64,000 nt of DNA, taken from positions 62,001 through 126,000 of the forward strand of contig JACCXH010000056.1 of NCBI GenBank assembly GCA_013697245.1, given 5' to 3'. A model generated the notes under the pieces. It was not told the DNA's origin. It ran no database searches and worked only from the letters and a program-made list of their open reading frames with translations. The translations under genes were made by a program, and so were the position numbers. Origin of the DNA: Bacteroidota bacterium (lineage in GTDB: Bacteria; Bacteroidota; Bacteroidia; B-17B0; Aurantibacillaceae). Shown one piece after another: positions 21,475 through 32,500 of this stretch (position 1 is the stretch's first letter; each line of letters begins with the position of its first letter).

Positions 21475-21801
21475 ATGGAAATTACAGAAGCGCAAAAATT
21501 AGTTGATGAATGGATAAAAAAATACGGTGTGCGTTATTTTAATGAATTAACCAATACTGCAATTTTAATGGAAGAGGTTGGTGAGGTTGCGCGCATCATG
21601 GCCCGCAGGTATGGCGAGCAAAGCGAAAAAGAAAGCGATAAACAAAAAAAACTGGAAGATGAATTGGCAGACGTGTTATTTGTTTTAATGTGTATTGCCA
21701 ATCAAACAGGAGTTAATTTGGAGGAAGCTCTAAAGAAAAACCTGGATAAAAAAACAGTACGCGATTCTGAAAGGCATTTAAATAATGATAAGTTGAAATA
21801 A
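21475..21801 (+). CDS. MazG-like nucleotide pyrophosphohydrolase
   Basis: 108 residues, a single all-alpha MazG-type domain. The metal-binding pattern is visible as LMEEVGEVARIMARR (ExxE) and LEDELADVLFVLMC (ExxxD). Such small proteins hydrolyse (d)NTPs to monophosphates and pyrophosphate, often for house-cleaning. It starts 5 bp after mscS and ends 4 bp before the stop of a convergent gene. There is no adjacent MazEF-type toxin. The substrate cannot be told from sequence. Confidence 0.9.
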   Translation: MEITEAQKLVDEWIKKYGVRYFNELTNTAILMEEVGEVARIMARRYGEQSEKESDKQKKLEDELADVLFVLMCIANQTGVNLEEALKKNLDKKTVRDSERHLNNDKLK

Positions 21802-21805
21802 TTTT

Positions 21806-22753
21806 TTAATAAAAAATATTGGCGTTACTAAAAACATTCCAATACAATTCGGTTTTTTTTACCTTCTGTCCTTCATTAAATAAATATTGCTCGCCTTTAT
21901 CATCGATCATTGGAATATGACAATTGTGTGTTTTATTTAATTTTTTAGGCACAAAGCGCATATTGTGAATGAACCTGTTTTGCACAGCATTCCTCACCTG
22001 CTCGGCATCTACGCCAATATTTGCCTGTATGTTCTGAGATAGCCCTATGTTGTATTTGAACTGTGCGCTTAACAATCCGTGCGAGATGTTTGAGTAAACA
22101 CCGTTAGTTGTATCCATATAACATTTAGTATAGATCTTTGGGTGATCGATATCAACAGTGCGGCCCATTTTACCTGTCCACATAGTGCAATTAATTCCTG
22201 CCTGAAAAATATCTTTATATTGATATTGTATTAAAAAAGCACCGGTCCTAAAGCGATCCAATATGGGTTTGGCAAGAATATCGTTTTCAATTATAAAACT
22301 TATAGTTTTAAATTGAAAAGCCGCAATACCTGTAACCTGTTTGGTTTTAATTTTATTAAAATAATAATTATAAGAATAAGCTACAGAGTTTTTATAACCG
22401 GTTTGATTTGAAACTGAATTGATGAAAGGGTTATAAAAGTTTTGTTTGCTGCCATAACCTAAAATTAATCCTTGCGCTAAAACCATTTCTTCGTAAATAA
22501 AATTAGGTCCCAGATTTTTAAAACTAAAATACATTCTTAATTCTGAATTAGTCTGTATATTTTTGTTTAAATAAAAAAAATTAAAATTTAAACCAAAACG
22601 TTGAAAATGTGACCCAAAGGCAACATTAGCGCCAATGTTAAATCCAATGTTCTTGTTTTTATAAACCAGGTCGCCTTGCGCGCCAGCAGGTTTTAAAAAA
22701 ACAAAAAAAAGCACTATACTTATTGCTTTAGCTATCTTATTTTTTTTGATCAA
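21806..22753 (-). CDS. Outer-membrane-type protein of unknown function (TTG start)
   Basis: 315 residues. The signal peptide (KKNKIAKAISIVLFFVFL, cleaved after AGAQ) is followed by alternating strands rich in Tyr/Asn/Phe (GFNIGANVAFGSHFQRFGLN, then LRMYFSFKNLG), resembling an outer-membrane barrel. No family recognised. No in-frame ATG precedes the signal peptide: the frame opens after a TAA only 30 bases upstream, and TTG at 22751-22753 is the only normal start. That start lies 17 bp inside the 3' end of aroK, so translation is probably coupled. It is the last gene of the hemB-sia-aroK run. Confidence 0.72.
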   Translation of the reverse strand: MIKKNKIAKAISIVLFFVFLKPAGAQGDLVYKNKNIGFNIGANVAFGSHFQRFGLNFNFFYLNKNIQTNSELRMYFSFKNLGPNFIYEEMVLAQGLILGYGSKQNFYNPFINSVSNQTGYKNSVAYSYNYYFNKIKTKQVTGIAAFQFKTISFIIENDILAKPILDRFRTGAFLIQYQYKDIFQAGINCTMWTGKMGRTVDIDHPKIYTKCYMDTTNGVYSNISHGLLSAQFKYNIGLSQNIQANIGVDAEQVRNAVQNRFIHNMRFVPKKLNKTHNCHIPMIDDKGEQYLFNEGQKVKKTELYWNVFSNANIFY

Positions 22754-23261
22754 TAATTTTTTGTTGTAGCATCTGTGCCGTTAAATTTAATCCTGAAATG
22801 GTAATATGCGCTTTGTTATAAAAATTTTGTCTTTCGCTTAATTTATTATTTATAAAAGTAAGCAATTCCTCGCCTTTTAAATTTTTAAGCAAGGGTCGCT
22901 TATTCATCGATTTTTCAAGGCGCTGCATTAAAGTAACAGCTGGTAGTTCAAGATATATTAAAGTTCCGCTTTTTTTTATTTTTTCTAAATTATTTTCGTA
23001 ACAAATGGTTCCTCCGCCCAGCGAAACAACCCCTACACTATCCAAACTTAATAATTCATTTAAACAGGTTTGCTCGATCTTACGAAAAGTAGCTTCCCCA
23101 AAATTTTCAAAAAGTGTTTGTATTGTAAGTCTTTCTTTTTTTTCAATATAATCATCCAGATCTACAAAATCACATCTCAAAGATTTAGCCAGTTTTTTTC
23201 CTATAGTAGTTTTACCACTACCCATAAACCCGGTTAAAAAAATATTTTCGTTATGCTGCAT
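22737..23261 (-). CDS. aroK: Shikimate kinase
   Basis: 174 residues from ATG at 23259-23261; the TTG just before it is not needed. The P-loop GFMGSGKTT is near residue 11, followed by shikimate-binding DLDDYIE, ATFRKIE and SLGGGT, and the lid/adenine segment NKRPLL. The enzyme phosphorylates shikimate with ATP in aromatic amino-acid synthesis. Its start overlaps the stop of the PP2C sensor by one base (TGATG), so it is read from the same message. No other aro gene is near; the link to the signalling genes appears to be operonic only. Confidence 0.95.
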   Translation of the reverse strand: MQHNENIFLTGFMGSGKTTIGKKLAKSLRCDFVDLDDYIEKKERLTIQTLFENFGEATFRKIEQTCLNELLSLDSVGVVSLGGGTICYENNLEKIKKSGTLIYLELPAVTLMQRLEKSMNKRPLLKNLKGEELLTFINNKLSERQNFYNKAHITISGLNLTAQMLQQKIIDQKK

Positions 23262-26200
23262 CAAACAACCTCAACCACAAAAAGAGCAACATCATCAATT
23301 TGTTCTTTGTTCCCTTTAAAATTAATAAAATGCTCTTTTAACGAAGCAACTTGTTTATGCAATGGCAAATTCTTAGTTGCTACTATTTGTTTATTTAAAC
23401 CACTTTTATACATGCGCCTGTTGTCGGCTTCGCTCTTTTGATCATAATAACCATCCGAATAAAAATAAATACGATCTCCTTTTTTTACTTCCAGCTGAGT
23501 ATCAATAAAATTGCTTTTATTATAGATCAAAAATGAATTTTGCCCCTTTATTTCTTTTAATTCCTCGTCACTTAAAATAGAAATAGATTGGCTAATGCCG
23601 CTAAAATATATTTTTTTAAGATCTTGGCGATAGCCAATTAAGGAGATCGCAAAACTTTCTTTTACGTCCTGGTCTTTTATATAGATCTCCGAAAAACCTT
23701 CGAGCAATTTTTTAAGTATTGAAGATGGTTCTTTAAATTCGTTTAAATTATCGATAATGCCATGCAAAATGGAGTTTACCGAAAACGACAACAAAGCCCC
23801 CGGCACTCCGTGCCCTGTACAATCTACCAGTGCAAAATAATTATATTTATCTCCTTTGTAGGTATAGAAAAAATCGCCGCTTACAATATCTTTTGGCAGA
23901 TAAATAGCCGAAGTTTTTACGATCTTATCAAATTGCTTATCAAGATATTCCTGCGAAGGCAAAATACTTTCCTGGATCTTTTTTGCGTACTCTAAACTTT
24001 CTGTAATTAATTTATCTTTTTGCAATAATTCATTGTTGCTTTTTTCTAACTCTACCGATTTTAAATTTAATTGTTTTGTGCGATGTGTAACCTTTTGTTC
24101 AAGCACAGCATTTTGTAATTTAATATTTCTTGTGCGAAACAGGATTATACTATAAACAACCATGAGAATAATAATTCCTATTAAGGTTTTAAACCACCAC
24201 GTTAAATAAAAAGGTGGTTTAATATTAATTGTATAAGATACGATTTCGCCAAAATTGATTTTGCCATTTGAAGCCGATAACTCAAAAACATATTTACCCG
24301 GATTTAAATTCGCGTAAACCGCTTTTGTTTCGTTACTTGGTATACTCCAGTTGGCGTTAAAACCAATTAACCTGTAAGAATAAAATACATTATCCAATAA
24401 ATTATAATTGACCCCTTTAAATTCAATGGTAAAAGCATTATCCTTAAAATAAAGCTCTAATGGTATTGACGGATCTACGATTTGATTAGTGAAATTTTTT
24501 GACTTTCGAAACACTAAAGATTCATTATCGTTATAAATATTTGAAATATAAATTGGTATCTCCATTTTTAATTGGTTGCTTGGCTTATACCTGTAGGCAC
24601 CATTTTCATGAGCGATCCAAACATAGGTTGAATCAGAAAAAATGGCTTTATCGGTAAGATCAAAATCAATTAAACCATTCCGTTTATTTATTACCTGATA
24701 AATACAATTTTTGTTATGCTTTGGTTTAATAGCCACCTGTATTAATCCTTTATTAGTTGCGGCAAACAAAAAAGTATCAACAATAGCAATGTCCCAAATT
24801 TCGTTATTGGGAAAACCATCCTTCCTGTAATTTGAGAAGGTTTCTTTTCCTTCATAACAGAATAAGCCTCTGTCGGCCGCTATCCAGATGTGTTTGTATT
24901 TGTCAACTTCAATACTATTAATAATACCATCCGGAAAATTTTTTGTGGTTCGTTTAGACACCTCGGTAAATTTATTTTCATCATACTTTGTCAAGCCGTC
25001 TCCGGTAGCGAGCCAAACTGCTGACTCTTTTTTAAGAATATCCTGGAAATAATTTGCGTGAACTTTCCCTGTAATGGTGTCAATTTTATTTGTTGTAATA
25101 TTATATTTTAAAAGGCCGCGTTTAAAACCAAACCAAATAAACTCATCATCGTTCAAAAGCGTCATTGATGGGTTATCGGTTCTTGAAAATTTGTAATCGA
25201 AGAATGTTTTTTTTGTAGTTGTGTATTTAAGAACTCCTTTTTCGCCAACGGTTAAATAAATGGCATTGTTCTTGTCAAAACAAAAATGCCTGAAATTATC
25301 AAAACCGGGTAAGCTTAAATAGTTTATAAAATTATTAGAGTCTTTATTATAAATTTTTATAGAATTTTTTGTTAATGCATAAATATTTTTTTTTGAATCA
25401 GAAGCAAATGTGATTGGCTCTGCGGAAAAATTATATTTTATGATGTCGCTTTTTATCATTTTAAAAACGCCATTGCTTCCACTGCCTACCCACAACAAAC
25501 CATTTTTGTCAAGCGACATACATTTTATATCACACTCATCTATACCGTTTTTAGAATCAAAATCATTAAAATTTTCCAAGTCGGTTGTATTTACCAAGCC
25601 GTTTCTTGTGCCGAGCCAAAGCGTATTATTATCGGCTAACATGCAGCGCACGTGATCTTTCCGCAAACCACTTTTTTGGTTAATGACCTTAACGAGATTT
25701 AATTTATCAAAAACATAAATACCATTTCTAGTAGCAACAAGAATATAATTTTTATATTTTGTAATATCCAATATGCCAATAATGTCAAGGCCCTTGTCTT
25801 TCTTATAATCTATCCAGTTGCCATTGGCCAGTTTAATAAAAAGATTATTTCGGTTCGGTAACCATTGATTATTTTCGTTGTCAATTAAAAAACAAACGGG
25901 TATGGTTTTTCTTTCGACGCTTTGTTTTTTAAGATCAACCATTGTTACTAATCCATCCTGGGTAGATGCATAAACAGTATTGCCAACAACGGTTGTTAGA
26001 AGAACATTTGAATTAATTGAATCATTTAAAATTTTAGAGAGATTGATAACACTATCTCTGGTAATTACTTCAAACGCACCTTGCGAACCAACAAAGATCC
26101 TGTTATTTTTTTCATCTAATGCAATATTCCTTATCAAGTCGTTATTTAAACCATTGTCGGCATTAATGACCTTAAATTTAATACCATCATAGCAAGCAAT

Positions 26201-26374
26201 GCCGCCGCCAAAAGTTGCAATCCAAATACGGTTGTACTTATCCGTCTTAATATCATAAACGATCGATGATGGCAAACCATCTTCTACGCCAATTTTTTTA
26301 AAAGTTTGGGATTCTCCGGAAAATTTAAGGAGACTAAAAAAAAGTATCCAATAGAAATGATATCGCAGGATCAG
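23261..26374 (-). CDS. Beta-propeller sensor with PP2C/SpoIIE phosphatase output (SiaA-like role), probable CTG start
   Basis: 1037 residues with the start proposed here. Residues about 25-640 hold two-component-regulator-type propeller blades (GLPSSIVYDI near the beginning, repeated RIWIAT, LWLGTRNGL and IWIAADRGL motifs). A Y_Y_Y domain follows (YSYRLIGFNANWS, LNPGKYVFELSAS), one membrane helix after WW at 726, a coiled coil, and a PP2C/SpoIIE phosphatase from about 820 (GDFFYTY, DCTGHGVPGALLS, SDGYYDQ, QIDDVALFVV). The first normal start, TTG at 26275, lies inside the first blade and would remove the signal peptide. The frame is open back to CTG at 26372-26374, giving ILRYHFYWILFFSLL as signal sequence; this CTG overlaps the upstream TGA. 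It probably dephosphorylates the SiaC-like protein. Confidence 0.85.
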   Translation of the reverse strand: MILRYHFYWILFFSLLKFSGESQTFKKIGVEDGLPSSIVYDIKTDKYNRIWIATFGGGIACYDGIKFKVINADNGLNNDLIRNIALDEKNNRIFVGSQGAFEVITRDSVINLSKILNDSINSNVLLTTVVGNTVYASTQDGLVTMVDLKKQSVERKTIPVCFLIDNENNQWLPNRNNLFIKLANGNWIDYKKDKGLDIIGILDITKYKNYILVATRNGIYVFDKLNLVKVINQKSGLRKDHVRCMLADNNTLWLGTRNGLVNTTDLENFNDFDSKNGIDECDIKCMSLDKNGLLWVGSGSNGVFKMIKSDIIKYNFSAEPITFASDSKKNIYALTKNSIKIYNKDSNNFINYLSLPGFDNFRHFCFDKNNAIYLTVGEKGVLKYTTTKKTFFDYKFSRTDNPSMTLLNDDEFIWFGFKRGLLKYNITTNKIDTITGKVHANYFQDILKKESAVWLATGDGLTKYDENKFTEVSKRTTKNFPDGIINSIEVDKYKHIWIAADRGLFCYEGKETFSNYRKDGFPNNEIWDIAIVDTFLFAATNKGLIQVAIKPKHNKNCIYQVINKRNGLIDFDLTDKAIFSDSTYVWIAHENGAYRYKPSNQLKMEIPIYISNIYNDNESLVFRKSKNFTNQIVDPSIPLELYFKDNAFTIEFKGVNYNLLDNVFYSYRLIGFNANWSIPSNETKAVYANLNPGKYVFELSASNGKINFGEIVSYTINIKPPFYLTWWFKTLIGIIILMVVYSIILFRTRNIKLQNAVLEQKVTHRTKQLNLKSVELEKSNNELLQKDKLITESLEYAKKIQESILPSQEYLDKQFDKIVKTSAIYLPKDIVSGDFFYTYKGDKYNYFALVDCTGHGVPGALLSFSVNSILHGIIDNLNEFKEPSSILKKLLEGFSEIYIKDQDVKESFAISLIGYRQDLKKIYFSGISQSISILSDEELKEIKGQNSFLIYNKSNFIDTQLEVKKGDRIYFYSDGYYDQKSEADNRRMYKSGLNKQIVATKNLPLHKQVASLKEHFINFKGNKEQIDDVALFVVEVV

Positions 26375-26787
26375 GCTTTTGGGTTATAATTAAATTTTAA
26401 GCCACACATGCTTTCCATCTCCTTTCCGGCATCCAACATATCCGAGTCTTCGGCGTGATAAAACCACTCGATCTCAAAATTAATTTTAAATTTTTCTTTG
26501 CCAACGTTCTTTAAGAGCATAAAAAGATCGAAAAGAACTTTAGCCGAAGTGGAGTTAAAATATTCCAAGTCGACCTTTAATTTTTTTGAAATATGAACGT
26601 TCGAGTTTTCAAGATCATTTAAAATATAGATATAATTAAAATAATCGTTAAACCATTTAAATGCTGTATCATAATACTTTAAAGGGTTTTCGGGTCTGCT
26701 CTCGCCTGTTATTGAGAATTTGTTTTCAAGATGATCCAGATGAATACTTGGGTTTATCTCATCTCCTTTTATATCTAAAGTTTCCAT
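26371..26787 (-). CDS. siaC: SiaC-family regulatory phosphoprotein (DUF1987)
   Basis: 138 residues. The conserved early motif TGESRPENPLKYYD (27-40) and the central YFNSTSAKVLFDLFM (77-90) are the DUF1987/SiaC signatures. In Pseudomonas aeruginosa SiaC is phosphorylated on a threonine by SiaB and dephosphorylated by the PP2C phosphatase SiaA; the matching site here should be S79, T80 or S81. Unphosphorylated SiaC activates the diguanylate cyclase SiaD there. No GGDEF protein is encoded in this window, so the target here is unknown. It starts 3 bp after the SiaB-like gene, and its stop overlaps the presumed CTG start of the phosphatase. Confidence 0.88.
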   Translation of the reverse strand: METLDIKGDEINPSIHLDHLENKFSITGESRPENPLKYYDTAFKWFNDYFNYIYILNDLENSNVHISKKLKVDLEYFNSTSAKVLFDLFMLLKNVGKEKFKINFEIEWFYHAEDSDMLDAGKEMESMCGLKFNYNPKA

Positions 26788-26790
26788 ATG

Positions 26791-27318
26791 TTAGTTGCTG
26801 GTATTTATTTTAAAATTTATGCTGAATAAAAAATTATCGTTGTATTCTTTAAAATGAAAATTAAAATCGTTGGTCTTTAAAACAAGGTCCACTAAACCTA
26901 AACCTGCCGTTGACACCTCGGAATACTGGTTATTAGAGATTATTTTTGATTTAATATCTAATAACTCGTCTTTAGATTTTGTATTTAAAAAATTTAATTT
27001 CTCGATGATGGCTTCTTTTTGTTTTGCATTAACAACATTTATGGTGTCTATTAAATAACACTTTTCAGACATGGATACCAGTAACAATGATTTGTAATGC
27101 AATAATGCATCTTCGGGGAAAAAATTATGTTTGATGATGTTTTCAACGCATTCGTTAATGGCGTTATATACCCTTTTAATTACTACTACATTCTCTTTAT
27201 TGCTTTCGAGTTTACTTTTGGTAATATTTAAAACCTGAGTTAAAACTTTACCATCAATAAATCCATAATAACTAAAAAGTACATTGTTAGTGTATAATAT
27301 TTCGCTTAATGATCTCAT
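26791..27318 (-). CDS. siaB: SiaB-family protein kinase (DUF6272-like)
   Basis: 175 residues, soluble. It resembles a degenerate GHKL ATPase: a helix with NECVENIIKHN (55-65) in the place of the N box and STAGLGLVDLV (136-146) as a glycine box. This matches DUF6272/SiaB kinases, which phosphorylate SiaC-type proteins. The order siaB, siaC, PP2C with gaps of 3 and -4 bp supports the assignment strongly. It lies 19 bp after hemB. Specific catalytic residues cannot be confirmed without an alignment. Confidence 0.82.
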   Translation of the reverse strand: MRSLSEILYTNNVLFSYYGFIDGKVLTQVLNITKSKLESNKENVVVIKRVYNAINECVENIIKHNFFPEDALLHYKSLLLVSMSEKCYLIDTINVVNAKQKEAIIEKLNFLNTKSKDELLDIKSKIISNNQYSEVSTAGLGLVDLVLKTNDFNFHFKEYNDNFLFSINFKINTSN

Positions 27319-27337
27319 ATACCTTTACTAAAATAAT

Positions 27338-28315
27338 TTATTTTTTTGACAACGCAAATTCTTTCGCGAAATAAGTTAGTATAACCGAAGCACCTGCGCG
27401 TTTTATGCTTAATAATATTTCATCTCGTATTTTATCGCCATCTATCCACTTTTTGGCTGCAGCCGCTTTTACCATAGCATATTCGCCACTCACATTGTAC
27501 GCGGCAATTGGTAAATTAAAATTATCGTTTAATAATTTAATAACATCTAAATAACTTAATGCGGGTTTTACCATTAAAAAATCGGCGCCTTCATTAAAGT
27601 CCAGGTCAGCTTCTAATAAAGCTTCGCGACTGTTTGCCGGATCCATTTGATATGTTTTTTTATCGCCAAATTTTGGGGCACTATCCAACGCATCTCTAAA
27701 TGGGCCATAAAAAGCGCTGGCATATTTTGCGGTATAACTCATAATAGAAACATCACTAAAACCGGCATCGTCTAAAGCTTCTCGTATAAAACCAACGCGT
27801 CCATCCATCATATCGCTTGGACCAATAATATCTGCGCCGGCTTCTGCCTGCACCAATGCCATTTTTGCAAGAATGTGCAACGTTTCATCATTTACGATAT
27901 GTCCGTTTTTTACATAACCATCGTGTCCATCGCTGCTATATGGATCCATGGCTACATCGGTCATTATTATTGCTTCTGGAAATCTTTTTTTAATTTCTTT
28001 GATGGTAGTTGGGTAAAGCCCTTTTTGATTGAATGATTCTGTGGCTTTTTTATCTTTTAATTTATCGCTCAAACTTGGAAACAAACAAAATGTATTTAAG
28101 TCTAATTTTAAACAGCTTTCTATTTCTTTTAATAACAAGTCGCTACTGTACCTGTAAATATTTGGCATTGAATTTATCTCGGATCTTTTGTTCTTGCCTT
28201 CGGTTAAAAAAAGTGGAAATATAAGGTCATCAACCGAAACAGAGTTTTCCTGCACCAAACTTCTGATAGTAGCATTTTTACGATTTCTCCTAGGACGTTG
28301 CGGTAAATTTATCAT
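27338..28315 (-). CDS. hemB: Delta-aminolevulinic acid dehydratase (porphobilinogen synthase)
   Basis: 325 residues, the normal length. The two active-site lysines are K197 (MSYTAKYASAFYGPF) and K250 (FLMVKPALSYLD), the latter forming the Schiff base. The enzyme condenses two 5-aminolevulinate molecules to porphobilinogen in haem synthesis. The metal loop around 120-132 (TDVAMDPYSSDGHDG) has A/D/D where zinc enzymes have three cysteines, so this is the magnesium-type, zinc-independent form. The siaB gene follows after 19 bp. hemA is far away at 57477 on the other strand. Confidence 0.96.
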   Translation of the reverse strand: MINLPQRPRRNRKNATIRSLVQENSVSVDDLIFPLFLTEGKNKRSEINSMPNIYRYSSDLLLKEIESCLKLDLNTFCLFPSLSDKLKDKKATESFNQKGLYPTTIKEIKKRFPEAIIMTDVAMDPYSSDGHDGYVKNGHIVNDETLHILAKMALVQAEAGADIIGPSDMMDGRVGFIREALDDAGFSDVSIMSYTAKYASAFYGPFRDALDSAPKFGDKKTYQMDPANSREALLEADLDFNEGADFLMVKPALSYLDVIKLLNDNFNLPIAAYNVSGEYAMVKAAAAKKWIDGDKIRDEILLSIKRAGASVILTYFAKEFALSKK

Positions 28316-28383
28316 AAAATAATTTAGATAAAATTACGGCATTTTTATTAAATAATTCAGGATTTTATTTTGGCTAAATGCTA

Positions 28384-29373
28384 TTAGTTCTTTGCAAGCA
28401 TAGCTCTCTCATTCATTTCGAGCATGGCCGCTAAAACCAATTGAGAATAGTTTTGAGAAGCATTTTTAAATCTTGCTGTTTGTGCCTGCCACAGATTATA
28501 GATAAGGTCCATATTACCGTGTTGCGGTTTGAATGTGAATAATGCGCTTTGTACGTTATATGCGCCGGCATGATAGGCATGCATTACCAAAAGCCTAAAC
28601 CATAGGTCCTGCTCATTATAACCTGTAATATTTAAAGAATCGAGCATTTTATGCACTTTAGGGATACAAATTCTTTTTATTAAGCTGCTGGATGCATAAG
28701 CACTTCTTTCAAAATCGGCACGTTCATCTATTTGCCTGTTTACTTTTAAACCAAACAATCTTGCTACTTCTTTCATTAATTGAAATGGGCCATAAGCACC
28801 CGCATTTGATTTTTGTAATTTATTGGGACTTTCTATTAAGAGAATTGCTTGTGCAAACCAGGGATCTACGCCATTTTCAACAAAACAATTAATACCGTTG
28901 TGAAAATTTTGCGAGGTCTTATCAAAATCGTAAAAGAATTTTTTACCGGTAGTAATTAAAACCCGACTTGTAGAATCCAGATTATACGCCAGTTTTACAC
29001 TATCGCGATAGAATTTTTTTGAAGAGTCGGATCTTTGGTTCCACTCTTTCATATTTATTTTTTGAACAACTGTTCTTGTACCTGCAAAATTTACAATGGC
29101 ACTATCTTGATGAAGGTTCATGATACTTCTCCAGAATTTAACCTGGGCAACCGTATCTAATTTATATTCATAGATCGCTTTATCCAACACATAATTTTCA
29201 TTCAATTTTGTTTTTGGATTAATTACCCCAACAACATTGTGGCACAAGGTTTTTGGTTCCTCGATCTTATTCTCTGTAATCGTGCTGGTTTTCTTTGCAA
29301 TTGGCTCGGTAGAGTTTATTGCATGGTTACTGCAAGAGAATAAAAAAACAGATATTAATAATAGAAGTCTCAA
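28384..29373 (-). CDS. Lytic transglycosylase lipoprotein (SLT domain, MltD-like), TTG start
   Basis: 329 residues from TTG at 29371-29373, which gives MRLLLLISVFLFSC, a compact lipoprotein signal with the lipid Cys at 14. A TTG at 29415 would extend it by 14 residues; no ATG is available, since the frame opens only 12 bases further upstream. The catalytic region is LLIESPNKLQKSNAGAYG followed by PFQLM, with the Glu of ES as acid catalyst, and VMHAYHAGAYNV corresponds to the late SLT motif. The enzyme cleaves the MurNAc-GlcNAc bond to anhydromuropeptides in the periplasm. An N-terminal segment of about 140 residues has no known domain. It ends 68 bp before hemB. Confidence 0.85.
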   Translation of the reverse strand: MRLLLLISVFLFSCSNHAINSTEPIAKKTSTITENKIEEPKTLCHNVVGVINPKTKLNENYVLDKAIYEYKLDTVAQVKFWRSIMNLHQDSAIVNFAGTRTVVQKINMKEWNQRSDSSKKFYRDSVKLAYNLDSTSRVLITTGKKFFYDFDKTSQNFHNGINCFVENGVDPWFAQAILLIESPNKLQKSNAGAYGPFQLMKEVARLFGLKVNRQIDERADFERSAYASSSLIKRICIPKVHKMLDSLNITGYNEQDLWFRLLVMHAYHAGAYNVQSALFTFKPQHGNMDLIYNLWQAQTARFKNASQNYSQLVLAAMLEMNERAMLAKN

Positions 29374-29508
29374 CTTTAGTAAGCCTAAATTTAAGGAATA
29401 ATCCAATGACTTCAAACACCAAAGAGGTTAAAAAATTAAAAGGAAATTGTTATTAATTTTAAGTGAGGTAGAGTATTAAAAGATTTACCAATTATTTTTT
29501 TGAAATAA

Positions 29509-32500
29509 TTACTTCATCAGCGTTACATGTCCGGTATATTCTTTTCTGCCTTCGCCGTTAATGCCTACTGCTTTTATTTTGTAAATGTAAACACCATCTT
29601 GTGCCACTTGGCCTTTTACTGTGCCATCCCAGCCCTTGGTAACATCTTTGCTAAAATACATCGAATGGCCCCAACGATCGAACAATTCCATGCTAAAGCC
29701 TTCGGGTTTAAAACCTAGACCTTTTACATTAAACACATCATTTAGACCATCGCCATTTGGTGTGAACGAGTTAGGAATGTATAATACCATTTCATCCGTT
29801 ACATCAATGATCTTTATGATCGAGTCGGTACAACCGTGATCTGTTGTTTGTATTAACATAATAGGGTATTTGCCCACTGTTTCAAAGGTTCTTATCGGGT
29901 TCTTTACATTGGTAGAATCGTAACCGATGATACCTGTGCCGCTAAAGAGCCAGTTAATATGGGTAATAGGGCCATATTTGGCCAGTGGGTTAAAGGTAAT
30001 TTGGTTGTTGCTGGTTGTAATAACATCCGGGTCCCAGTTAAAATCAGAATGTGGTTTTGGCCATACTACAATGGGTGATGGAAAATCGTAAGTGCCTTTA
30101 CAGCCATTTTTTCCTAATGATGTTATTTTTAAATTATACGTTCCAGGCTCTGTTAAACAATAGGTAAAACTATCTGCCTGCATAACGTTGGTGCCTCCAA
30201 AATCGTAAGTGGTTATAGCCGCCTGGTTTTGTGTTTGGGTATTGTAAAATAAACATAACGCTTCGCAGCCTTCCGTTTTATCTAATTGTAAGTTGGGTTG
30301 TGGGGGTTGGTTCACCTGCACAGTAAAGCTATGGAAAACGGTATAGTTAGGGCAGGCAATATCATAGCCAGCTAAATTATAAATAGTGGTTCCTATTGGA
30401 TGACCATATTGTACGCTTCCGGTTGGTGATCCTAAGAACGAGCCCGGGGTCCATACATAGGCATAGTTCTGGCTACCCCCTGTTGATCCCGCTATCAAGG
30501 CTATACTATCGCCTCTACAGATAGTTCTGCTTTGTGGGGTTAGTGTAAATGCCAATGGGGTTAATACATCTATTTGTATGTTTTGTGTACTGTTACATGG
30601 GCCAAGTGAAGCTGTAAGTGTATAGCTGCCTGACTGGTTAGGTTGTATGCCTGGAATAGTTAAATTTTGTGCGTTAGAGGTAAAGCCTGTTGAGCTGGTC
30701 CAGGTGTAAGAGGTTGCTCCTGCTGGGCCGGGTACATTTAATAATGTATTATAGCACATTTGTTTGTAGGCATCTAAGGTAAAGGTCAGTTTTGGGTATA
30801 TGGTCAGCTGTACCGTGTTAGTGTTATAACAGGTGAGTTGTCCGTTATTATATGATGTGGTTACCTGATAGATACCATTGGCCACCGGACTTGGTGCAAA
30901 TATTACAGGGTTTGCTACTGCGGATGTAAAGCTGTTTGGTCCTGTCCAGCTATAAGTGGCTGCCCCATTGGAGGTGGCAGAAAGCTGTGCATTATTAGGT
31001 TGGCAGGTAGCAACTGTTGGGGTAACTATTACAGGATTTACCGGCACTACATTTATTTGCGCTGAGCCGGTAGTGGTGCAGCTTACAGTACCGATAGCAA
31101 AGGTAGAGGTAGCATAGTATACACCGGCTGATGCGGGCTGAATATTATTAATGGCCGAAGCCTGAGTATTAGATGAAAAGTTGTTTGGCCCTACCCACGA
31201 AAAAGCAATGGCGCCAGGTGCGCTAGCGCTGATGTTAGCGTTGGTGAACTGGCATAAGTTATTTGGGTTGGCTGTTACAGTTGTACCTGACGTGCCCACT
31301 ACCTGCACATTAGAGGTTGCCGTGGATGTACATACCAGCGTGCTTACCGGACTGGTATAATACGCTGTTACGCTATACAGCCCCGAATTGGCCGGCATGA
31401 CATTACTAATAGTTGGGTTTTGTTGTACTGAGTTATAAGGCCCCGGCCCTGTCCATGAATAAGAGGTTGGCGCCGGATTAGCATTGGAGATAAGGTTCAA
31501 AGCAGCCCCCTGGCATAAGGTAAAGTTAGGGGTGGCTGTTAATGTGCCGCTTGGCACTATGCCAACTGTTGTTGTGCCCTGTGCTGCACACTGAAAACCT
31601 CCTGGAAATGTATTGATTACAGTTAAACTATAGGTACCCGAGCTGCCGGACTGAGCATTAGGAATGACCGGGTTCTGTACATTAGACACAAAGCCCCCGG
31701 GGCCATTCCAGCTATAGCTTGGTACTCCCGCCGTAGCGGCATTGGTGTTAAAGTTCAATGTCGTGCCTTGGCATACTGGGCCTGTATTAGTTAACGTGTT
31801 AATGGTGGGGGTGGCATTAACCGTAATAGAAATAGTTTGTGTTGCGGTACAAGCAATGTTTGATCCTGTAACTGTATAAATTGTAGTTACCGAAGGAGCC
31901 AAAGCAATTGAAGGCGTAGTAGGCCCGGTGTTCCAAGTATACGTTACAACTGTTGTTGCTGTTGAGTTTGCAGTTAAAGTTGTTTGTTGACCGGAACATA
32001 ATGTGTTAGTACCTGCAATAGTAATTGGTAAGGCGCTGTATGGTAGAGCGGGGCTTGGTAAATTTGCTAATGATCCGCCATTAAGGCCAGCAACAGCGCC
32101 AAAAGTAGTATTAAAGCATGTGCTTGCAGGATTAAGAACAAGACCTGCCGCACCACCTGTTGTAAGATATGTAACGGTTCCGGGAATTACCGCACCGCTA
32201 AATGCGTAAAGTCCTCCGCCACCGCCACCACCGGGCCCATGGCAGTTTCCAGGAAAAATAGTATTGTTATTGCTACCTCCACTACCGCCGCTAGTATTTA
32301 CGGTTAAATTTCCAACATAATTATTGCACTCAATAAAAATTGTGCCACCGGCACCACCGCCACCCGAACCTTCATCATTAGCAATAATAGTAACGCTTCC
32401 TCCACAGGAGGCAATAATTCTATTATTGCAAATTATTTGATTTGCTTTGATATAAATAATACCACCACCGTTACCACCAGCTGTAGCTACCTGTCCATTA

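Follow-up and report, generated by a model that had tools for sequence, protein, structure and literature searches.

A SiaABC-type partner switch in a Bacteroidota genome without GGDEF proteins, with an exporter as candidate target for its group

What does a SiaC-type phosphoprotein act on in a genome that lacks the diguanylate cyclase SiaD? The question is raised by an operon in a 64,000-nucleotide stretch of DNA (hereafter the window) of a Bacteroidota bacterium of the family Aurantibacillaceae (assembly GCA_013697245.1, contig JACCXH010000056.1, positions 62,001 to 126,000), which encodes relatives of the kinase SiaB, the phosphoprotein SiaC and the sensor phosphatase SiaA of Pseudomonas aeruginosa. 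Judged from sequence comparisons, the operon is very probably a true partner switch of the SiaA/SiaB/SiaC type, and it almost certainly does not control cyclic diguanylate (c-di-GMP). For the wider group of related SiaC proteins, the leading candidate output is an ATP-binding cassette (ABC) exporter, which gene context makes probable; that the same exporter would be the output of the window's own paralogue is a tentative and rather doubtful proposition.

The operon and its three products

The following features of the operon are considered here:

26791..27318, minus strand: SiaB-family (DUF6272) kinase, 175 amino acids (aa); Pfam DUF6272, 73.9 bits
26371..26787, minus strand: SiaC-family phosphoprotein, 138 aa; Pfam SiaC, 84.4 bits, and AlphaFold2 model
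26551..26553, minus strand: codon of SiaC Ser79, which corresponds to Thr68 of Pseudomonas SiaC (position counted from the start of the gene)
23261..26368, minus strand: sensor phosphatase resembling SiaA, with 1035 aa if translation starts at the proposed CTG; Pfam matches to Reg_prop, Y_Y_Y and SpoIIE
26366..26368, minus strand: proposed CTG start codon of the phosphatase, from orthologous loci

An earlier reading of these letters without database searches (the sequence-only reading) had described SiaB-like, SiaC-like and PP2C genes in a tight run, and this description is borne out by the Pfam matches and by intergenic gaps which, from the coordinates, are 19 nucleotides (nt) between an upstream hemB-like gene and siaB, 3 nt between siaB and siaC, and 2 nt between siaC and the proposed phosphatase start. 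The siaB product exceeds the Pfam DUF6272 cut-off of 26.6 bits and scores 72.9 bits against the NCBIfam SiaB-family kinase model, below the cut-off of 85. Pseudomonas SiaB (6kko_A) is found at E 1.6e-31 by a profile of 18 SiaB proteins, across all of which Glu56 and Asn60, aligned with Pseudomonas SiaB, are unchanged; the predicted catalytic residue of the Pseudomonas protein is Glu61 (PMC7647112).

The siaC product lies far above the Pfam cut-off (PF09345, 24.5 bits), and its AlphaFold2 model, with a mean predicted local distance difference test score (pLDDT) of 82.5, superimposes on four Pseudomonas SiaC entries (121-125 residues, Z 17.7-17.8). STAS follows as the next-best fold (Z 8.1), and the STAS proteins that the model resembles include MlaB of the Mla ABC complex (Z 6.9). 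In Pseudomonas SiaC, Thr68 sits within LLYLNTSSIK (PMC7647112); alignment with the corresponding LEYFNSTSAK of the window protein identifies Ser79 as its equivalent, and this serine is the first residue of a predicted helix (79-98). Where S79/T80/S81 had been put forward together as the phosphosite, S79 thus stands as the Thr68 equivalent and T80 and S81 do not.

The claim of a phosphatase with a propeller and Y_Y_Y sensor also proved sound, since Reg_prop, Y_Y_Y and SpoIIE (59.3 bits vs a cut-off of 25) each exceed their Pfam cut-offs. A single strong hydrophobic segment is found, in 19-residue windows starting at 719-731, and the predicted topology would place the propeller and Y_Y_Y part outside the cell and the PP2C domain inside. 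The first ATG, GTG or TTG of the open reading frame (ORF) is at 26275, and a start there loses a signal-peptide-like stretch. Comparison of the five orthologous loci that retain the phosphatase showed, by eye, an in-frame CTG at the matching place in four (G000, which is the window's own genome, G397, G412 and G415) and a TTG in the fifth (G405); a CTG start at 26366-26368, missed by ATG/GTG/TTG calling, is therefore proposed.

The NCBIfam equivalog models for SiaA (117.9 bits, in the C-terminal part, vs a cut-off of 700), SiaB (33.7 bits, cut-off 225) and SiaC (50.3 bits, cut-off 150) are all far from being reached, so the three products are to be regarded as relatives and not as orthologues of the Pseudomonas proteins. 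Ratios of nonsynonymous to synonymous change (dN/dS) relative to near relatives were 0.03-0.05 for siaB (three pairs), 0.03 for siaC (one pair, the others being saturated) and 0.06-0.07 for the phosphatase gene (two pairs), figures that are only rough because synonymous change exceeded 1 in the compared pairs.

Missing cyclases and a candidate exporter

SiaD had been noted as absent from the window, and the absence extends further: no GGDEF match was obtained in the whole assembly (4.44 Mb in 74 contigs, completeness listed as 100), nor were GGDEF or EAL domains found in any of 60 genomes comprising this one and 59 relatives, in searches that scored 8 of 14 and 6 of 14 control genomes, respectively, as positive. 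SiaC was matched in 50 of the same 60 genomes, a count valid at the sensitivity of the window SiaC used as query. The lack of GGDEF in the genome and its 59 relatives points to a SiaC target other than SiaD. On this point the sequence-only reading, which had predicted a new target, is upheld, with an exporter emerging as candidate for the group; the candidate is unlinked to the window paralogue. Its more general statement that c-di-GMP signalling is uncommon in Bacteroidota needs refining, GGDEF being present in 189 of 392 genomes sampled across the phylum (most with a single match, some weak), yet only two of the GGDEF-listed genomes (G037 and G166) belong to the window's own class.

Next to other SiaB-SiaC pairs stands a gene whose product, of about 1020 aa, joins a TerB-like part to an ABC ATPase and a membrane part of ABC-2 type. 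Among NCBIfam models it comes closest to TIGR00955, which is of ABCG type, with sub-cut-off scores of 258 and 259 bits, and the two copies in the window's genome, on contigs C46 and C43, match profile A1 at 2.4e-116 and 1.6e-76. Pfam TerB is matched by the L103 copy with 26.8 bits (cut-off 24.4), the C43 copy reaching 22.2 bits and the C46 copy being unlisted. In a model of the exporter N-terminus (pLDDT 85.1), residues 1-142 match PG1108 of P. gingivalis (Z 9.1), and residues from about 150 to 245 match mostly FHA chains (Z about 7, best Foldseek E 2.5e-3); by profile, this N-terminal module reaches the MEK1 FHA domain at E 0.008, with no Pfam FHA match. An FHA fold is likely on this modelling, without being firm. 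A pattern search found no SiaD-like stalk in the exporter.

The linkage was surveyed at 80 named loci, the nearest to one SiaC query and the best 80 of at least 565 relatives, in a scan based on a profile (A3) that included exporter-linked SiaC. SiaB was present in 76 of these loci, a SpoIIE domain in 27, GGDEF (sought with a single reference sequence) in none, and the exporter in 23, or 24 with L164, which was added by hand since only the ATPase/membrane part is on the contig, at its end. All 24 exporters are convergent with SiaC, and in 21 cases the two are not separated by any ORF of at least 70 aa. Same-strand runs of SiaC and exporter occur at ten loci (L095, L103, L104, L105, L114, L211, L212, L213, L214 and L215). 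At L216 and L217, the exporter gene lies opposite, and immediately next to, a set of SiaB, SiaC and a propeller-Y_Y_Y-SpoIIE phosphatase, an arrangement that by gene content is the window's gene set plus a putative output. In G418 and G419, moreover, a TerB/FHA-like module is fused to SiaC in a protein positioned between siaC and the exporter gene. Four N-extended SiaC proteins were tested for such a fusion: L095|6 and L213|6 match the TerB/FHA-like module, and L114|6 and L094|4 were rejected for lack of a match.

Presence and absence run in parallel. With a threshold of E under 1e-20, set after the scores were seen, the exporter was found in 48 of the 50 genomes with SiaC and in 1 of the 10 without it; counted by genus, the figures are 14/15 and 1/9 (p 1e-4). 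Genomes supplying rows of profile A1 match by construction, and leaving out the five among the relatives gives 43/45 vs 1/10. In the 392-genome sample, SiaC occurs in 22 genomes. All five that belong to the window's class carry the exporter, and GGDEF occurs in none of them; among the 17 outside it none reaches the exporter threshold, three giving weak and partial matches, and GGDEF is present in 16, in several families as only one weak match. The exporter was seen in 1 of the 370 genomes without SiaC, and omission of the three profile-source genomes of this sample leaves 2/19 vs 1/370 (p 0.007). It is because of the adjacency in two arrangements, the fusion and the matching presence and absence that the exporter leads as target for the group.

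Some further observations concern these genes. CheR-like and CheB-like genes adjoin the sensor phosphatase at six exporter-linked sets (L103, L104, L105, L095, L211 and L213), these names, like hemB, fba and accD elsewhere, having been assigned by eye. The other exporter neighbours, a lipoprotein-like protein of about 300 aa and proteins of about 140 aa and 1508 aa, received no Pfam or NCBIfam name where tested. A SiaB-SiaC pair with 83% identity to Bacteroidota SiaC is present on a contig titled Candidatus Saccharibacteria (L145), which is probably mis-assigned.

The target of the window's own SiaC

In the proposed mechanism, SiaB would phosphorylate SiaC on Ser79, and the propeller/Y_Y_Y part would sense a signal outside the cell and thereby set the PP2C domain to dephosphorylate it. 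Dephosphorylated SiaC would then bind its target via the helix beginning at Ser79. In this class the usual target would most probably be the ABC exporter instead of SiaD, with SiaC perhaps docking on the TerB/FHA-like module, and the exporter would be switched by Ser/Thr phosphorylation of a STAS-like SiaC through a dedicated kinase/phosphatase pair. This reading as a whole, that is, a SiaABC switch outside c-di-GMP signalling with the exporter as usual class target, is considered the best explanation, held with evenly balanced confidence. The same balance applies to a rewiring of SiaC from diguanylate cyclase to ABCG-like exporter in Bacteroidota devoid of c-di-GMP enzymes, as a phosphorylation-controlled counterpart of MlaB-MlaF, and to the role that the window operon would have in it as one of several parallel inputs. 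The window SiaC itself most likely acts either on one of the two exporters encoded in its genome or on a private target.

The window operon is not solitary but part of a SiaC/SpoIIE network, the genome having seven SiaC over cut-off, 55 SpoIIE phosphatases and five DUF6272 matches in four genes, one of them tandem. Window-type SiaC (E <=1e-59) occurs in 8 of the 37 genomes of the genus, the window's included. The order hemB-siaB-siaC is retained at all eight loci, with the phosphatase adjoining siaC at five and missing beside it in G410, G393 and G427 (a count made at the locus, not elsewhere in those genomes). Between G412, which keeps the phosphatase, and G410, which does not, siaB and siaC are constrained (dN/dS about 0.01 and 0.03).

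Several observations weigh against the exporter reading. A survey of neighbours in other genomes, which the sequence-only reading had recommended, found the exporter beside other SiaB-SiaC pairs and neither an exporter nor any other output gene at the eight window-type loci; SiaC proteins of other families with the YFNSTSAK motif (L093, L110, L111 and L112) likewise lack an exporter up to 6 kb away. In a tree of 121 SiaC proteins, in which few columns make the deep forks unsure, the eight window-type rows form one clade (support 100/100) on a long branch (3.7), as befits a divergent paralogue. The exporter of the window's genome nearest to a SiaB-SiaC pair is 4.7 kb off, across the 1508-aa gene (C46), the other lies about 43 kb from the C43 SiaC, and neither is linked to the window operon. 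SiaC occurs without a full exporter in G424 (60% complete) and in G447 (7 SiaC), and the exporter without SiaC in G446 of the 60-genome set and G337 of the phylum sample. The exporter is found in all eight window-type genomes, but also in 35 of the 37 of the genus, and so does not track the window operon. Finally, the FHA identification of the exporter module is of moderate strength.

Three of these points, namely the want of a linked output in 8/8 orthologous loci, the divergent clade, and G447 with related SiaC and no full-length exporter, speak for a private, unlinked target of window-type SiaC, the exporter serving only the other paralogues. Against it stand the linkage of paralogues, and of the same propeller-phosphatase sets, to the exporter and the two exporters of the genome itself; a private target is a serious alternative that falls short of even confidence, about on a par with the exporter as output of this paralogue. 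It is unlikely that the operon acts mainly on the other members of the SiaC/PP2C network, with SiaB and SiaC working as a kinase common to them or as a competitor that depends on phosphate, and with any of the many phosphatases able to serve it. Such a role would suit a genome with 7 SiaC and 55 SpoIIE phosphatases, as well as the three loci that lack the adjacent phosphatase, siaB and siaC remaining constrained between G412 and G410, but the phosphatase, where present, is itself constrained and tightly coupled to siaC. Far less probable is that one of the enzymes encoded alongside, AroK or the product of hemB, is the target: the hemB linkage is universal among the window-type loci, yet it is unseen at L093, L110, L111 and L112, and the canonical SiaC of the genus is linked instead to aldolase-like and accD-like genes, so that housekeeping neighbours look like gene order and this target was rejected as such. 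A diguanylate cyclase or SiaD-like protein hidden elsewhere, for which only the draft state of the assembly could be invoked, was rejected as extremely improbable in view of the 0/60 results for GGDEF and EAL and of a SiaD-type stalk profile that found in this genome only a match of E 0.012, in a 38-aa frame containing stops.

Beside the exporter reading, the network has some features of its own. The tandem SiaB has 376 aa with two DUF6272 stretches (L043 6749-7879, G000:C46), and 8 of the 55 SpoIIE-type phosphatases lie inside about 20 kb on contig C53 (C53:304892-325288). One SiaC paralogue (L044 7934-8308, G000:C30) has YYNSVFHK at its site region, unlike the usual NTSS-like motif, and adjoins a TPR-like SpoIIE phosphatase. 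A 281-aa protein of G441 (L096 6406-7251) contains two SiaC stretches in one chain.

Known switches, other SiaC neighbours and flanking genes

With SiaABCD of P. aeruginosa (PMC7647112, PMC8457831), a system of Pseudomonas biofilm control, the window operon has in common a SiaB-type kinase and a membrane PP2C phosphatase in one gene run, and a SiaC in which a Ser/Thr opens the corresponding helix. It differs in its propeller/Y_Y_Y sensor, in the several paralogous sets per genome and in the absence of SiaD or any other GGDEF protein. The likeness to MlaB-MlaF of the Mla transporter lies in a STAS-fold protein on an ABC ATPase, such binding being for the window SiaC a prediction. Thr52 of MlaB is at the MlaF interface, and the phosphomimetic Thr52Glu lowered binding (PMC7367683). 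MlaB is not known to have a kinase or phosphatase, whereas the window SiaC is encoded with both and the exporter is ABCG-like; PMC7367683 leaves open if a STAS protein bound to an ABC transporter is under the control of phosphorylation.

The logic of kinase, phosphatase and STAS protein is shared with the STAS/GHKL switches (SpoIIAA/AB, RsbV/W, HsbA, BgrV and the Campylobacterota sets of PMC9239204). The fold scores (17.8 vs 8.1) set SiaC (PF09345) well apart from plain STAS proteins. On this ground, and because no sigma or anti-sigma gene was recognised beside the window operon (no search aimed at sigma factors was made), a role as plain anti-sigma antagonist was discarded. A sigma-like gene, named by eye, is found near the C43 SiaC set. 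For the Campylobacterota sets, a c-di-GMP enzyme and a chemoreceptor have been proposed as non-sigma outputs (PMC9239204), and the chemoreceptor proposal means that outputs other than sigma factors and cyclases are not new as an idea. It has also been suggested that DUF1987/SiaC proteins generally modulate adjacent proteins (PMC8457831), and the SiaC target shown in the literature consulted is one cyclase. The literature searched, from which subscription papers were mostly out of reach, yielded no report on SiaC (PF09345) from Bacteroidota or on SiaC together with an exporter.

Outside the window's class, 11 SiaC loci were examined (L115-L125). At seven of them, the product of a neighbouring gene includes a short helix of the form [SG]-D-x-x-Q, a pattern written after the sequences were seen. 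Its spacing is that of SiaD residues S82, D83 and Q86, which contact SiaC (PMC8457831). Only one of the seven stalk proteins has a GGDEF domain (L115). Four are of 85-99 aa, three of those adjoining a protein of about 1260 aa; the one of L122 combines the stalk with a PP2C-like part; and that of L124 (6297-6773, G160) is a 158-aa protein with hydrophobic stretches, between siaC and flagellar-looking genes (by eye). A link of these neighbours to the SiaD-type SiaC contact is only suggestive, because the profile derived from them finds SiaD itself at no better than E 1.1. The L124 protein may be a motility target of SiaC.

DUF1987/SiaC proteins are widespread, and testable targets can now be named for them, the ABCG-like exporter in the window's class and the stalk proteins, mostly not cyclases, in other classes. 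The presence of kinase, phosphatase, SiaC and exporter genes together at many loci bears on the question left open in PMC7367683. If the exporter reading is true, the outside sensor would offer a route from a surface signal to export that involves neither transcription nor c-di-GMP.

The operon belongs to a longer gene run on the minus strand (21806-28315: hemB-like, siaB, siaC, phosphatase, aroK and an Ntox23-match gene), whose flanking members are:

27338..28315, minus strand: upstream neighbour, hemB-like by eye (without family search)
22737..23264, minus strand: downstream neighbour aroK (shikimate kinase); Pfam SKI, 140 bits
21806..22753, minus strand: 315-aa protein downstream of aroK; Pfam Ntox23, 98.5 bits

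No terminator-like site was found within 21700-29600, and a promoter scan remained at chance level (38 sites vs 37.7 expected). The phosphatase gene and aroK overlap by 4 nt, and the Ntox23-match gene is retained 3' of aroK at several orthologous loci.

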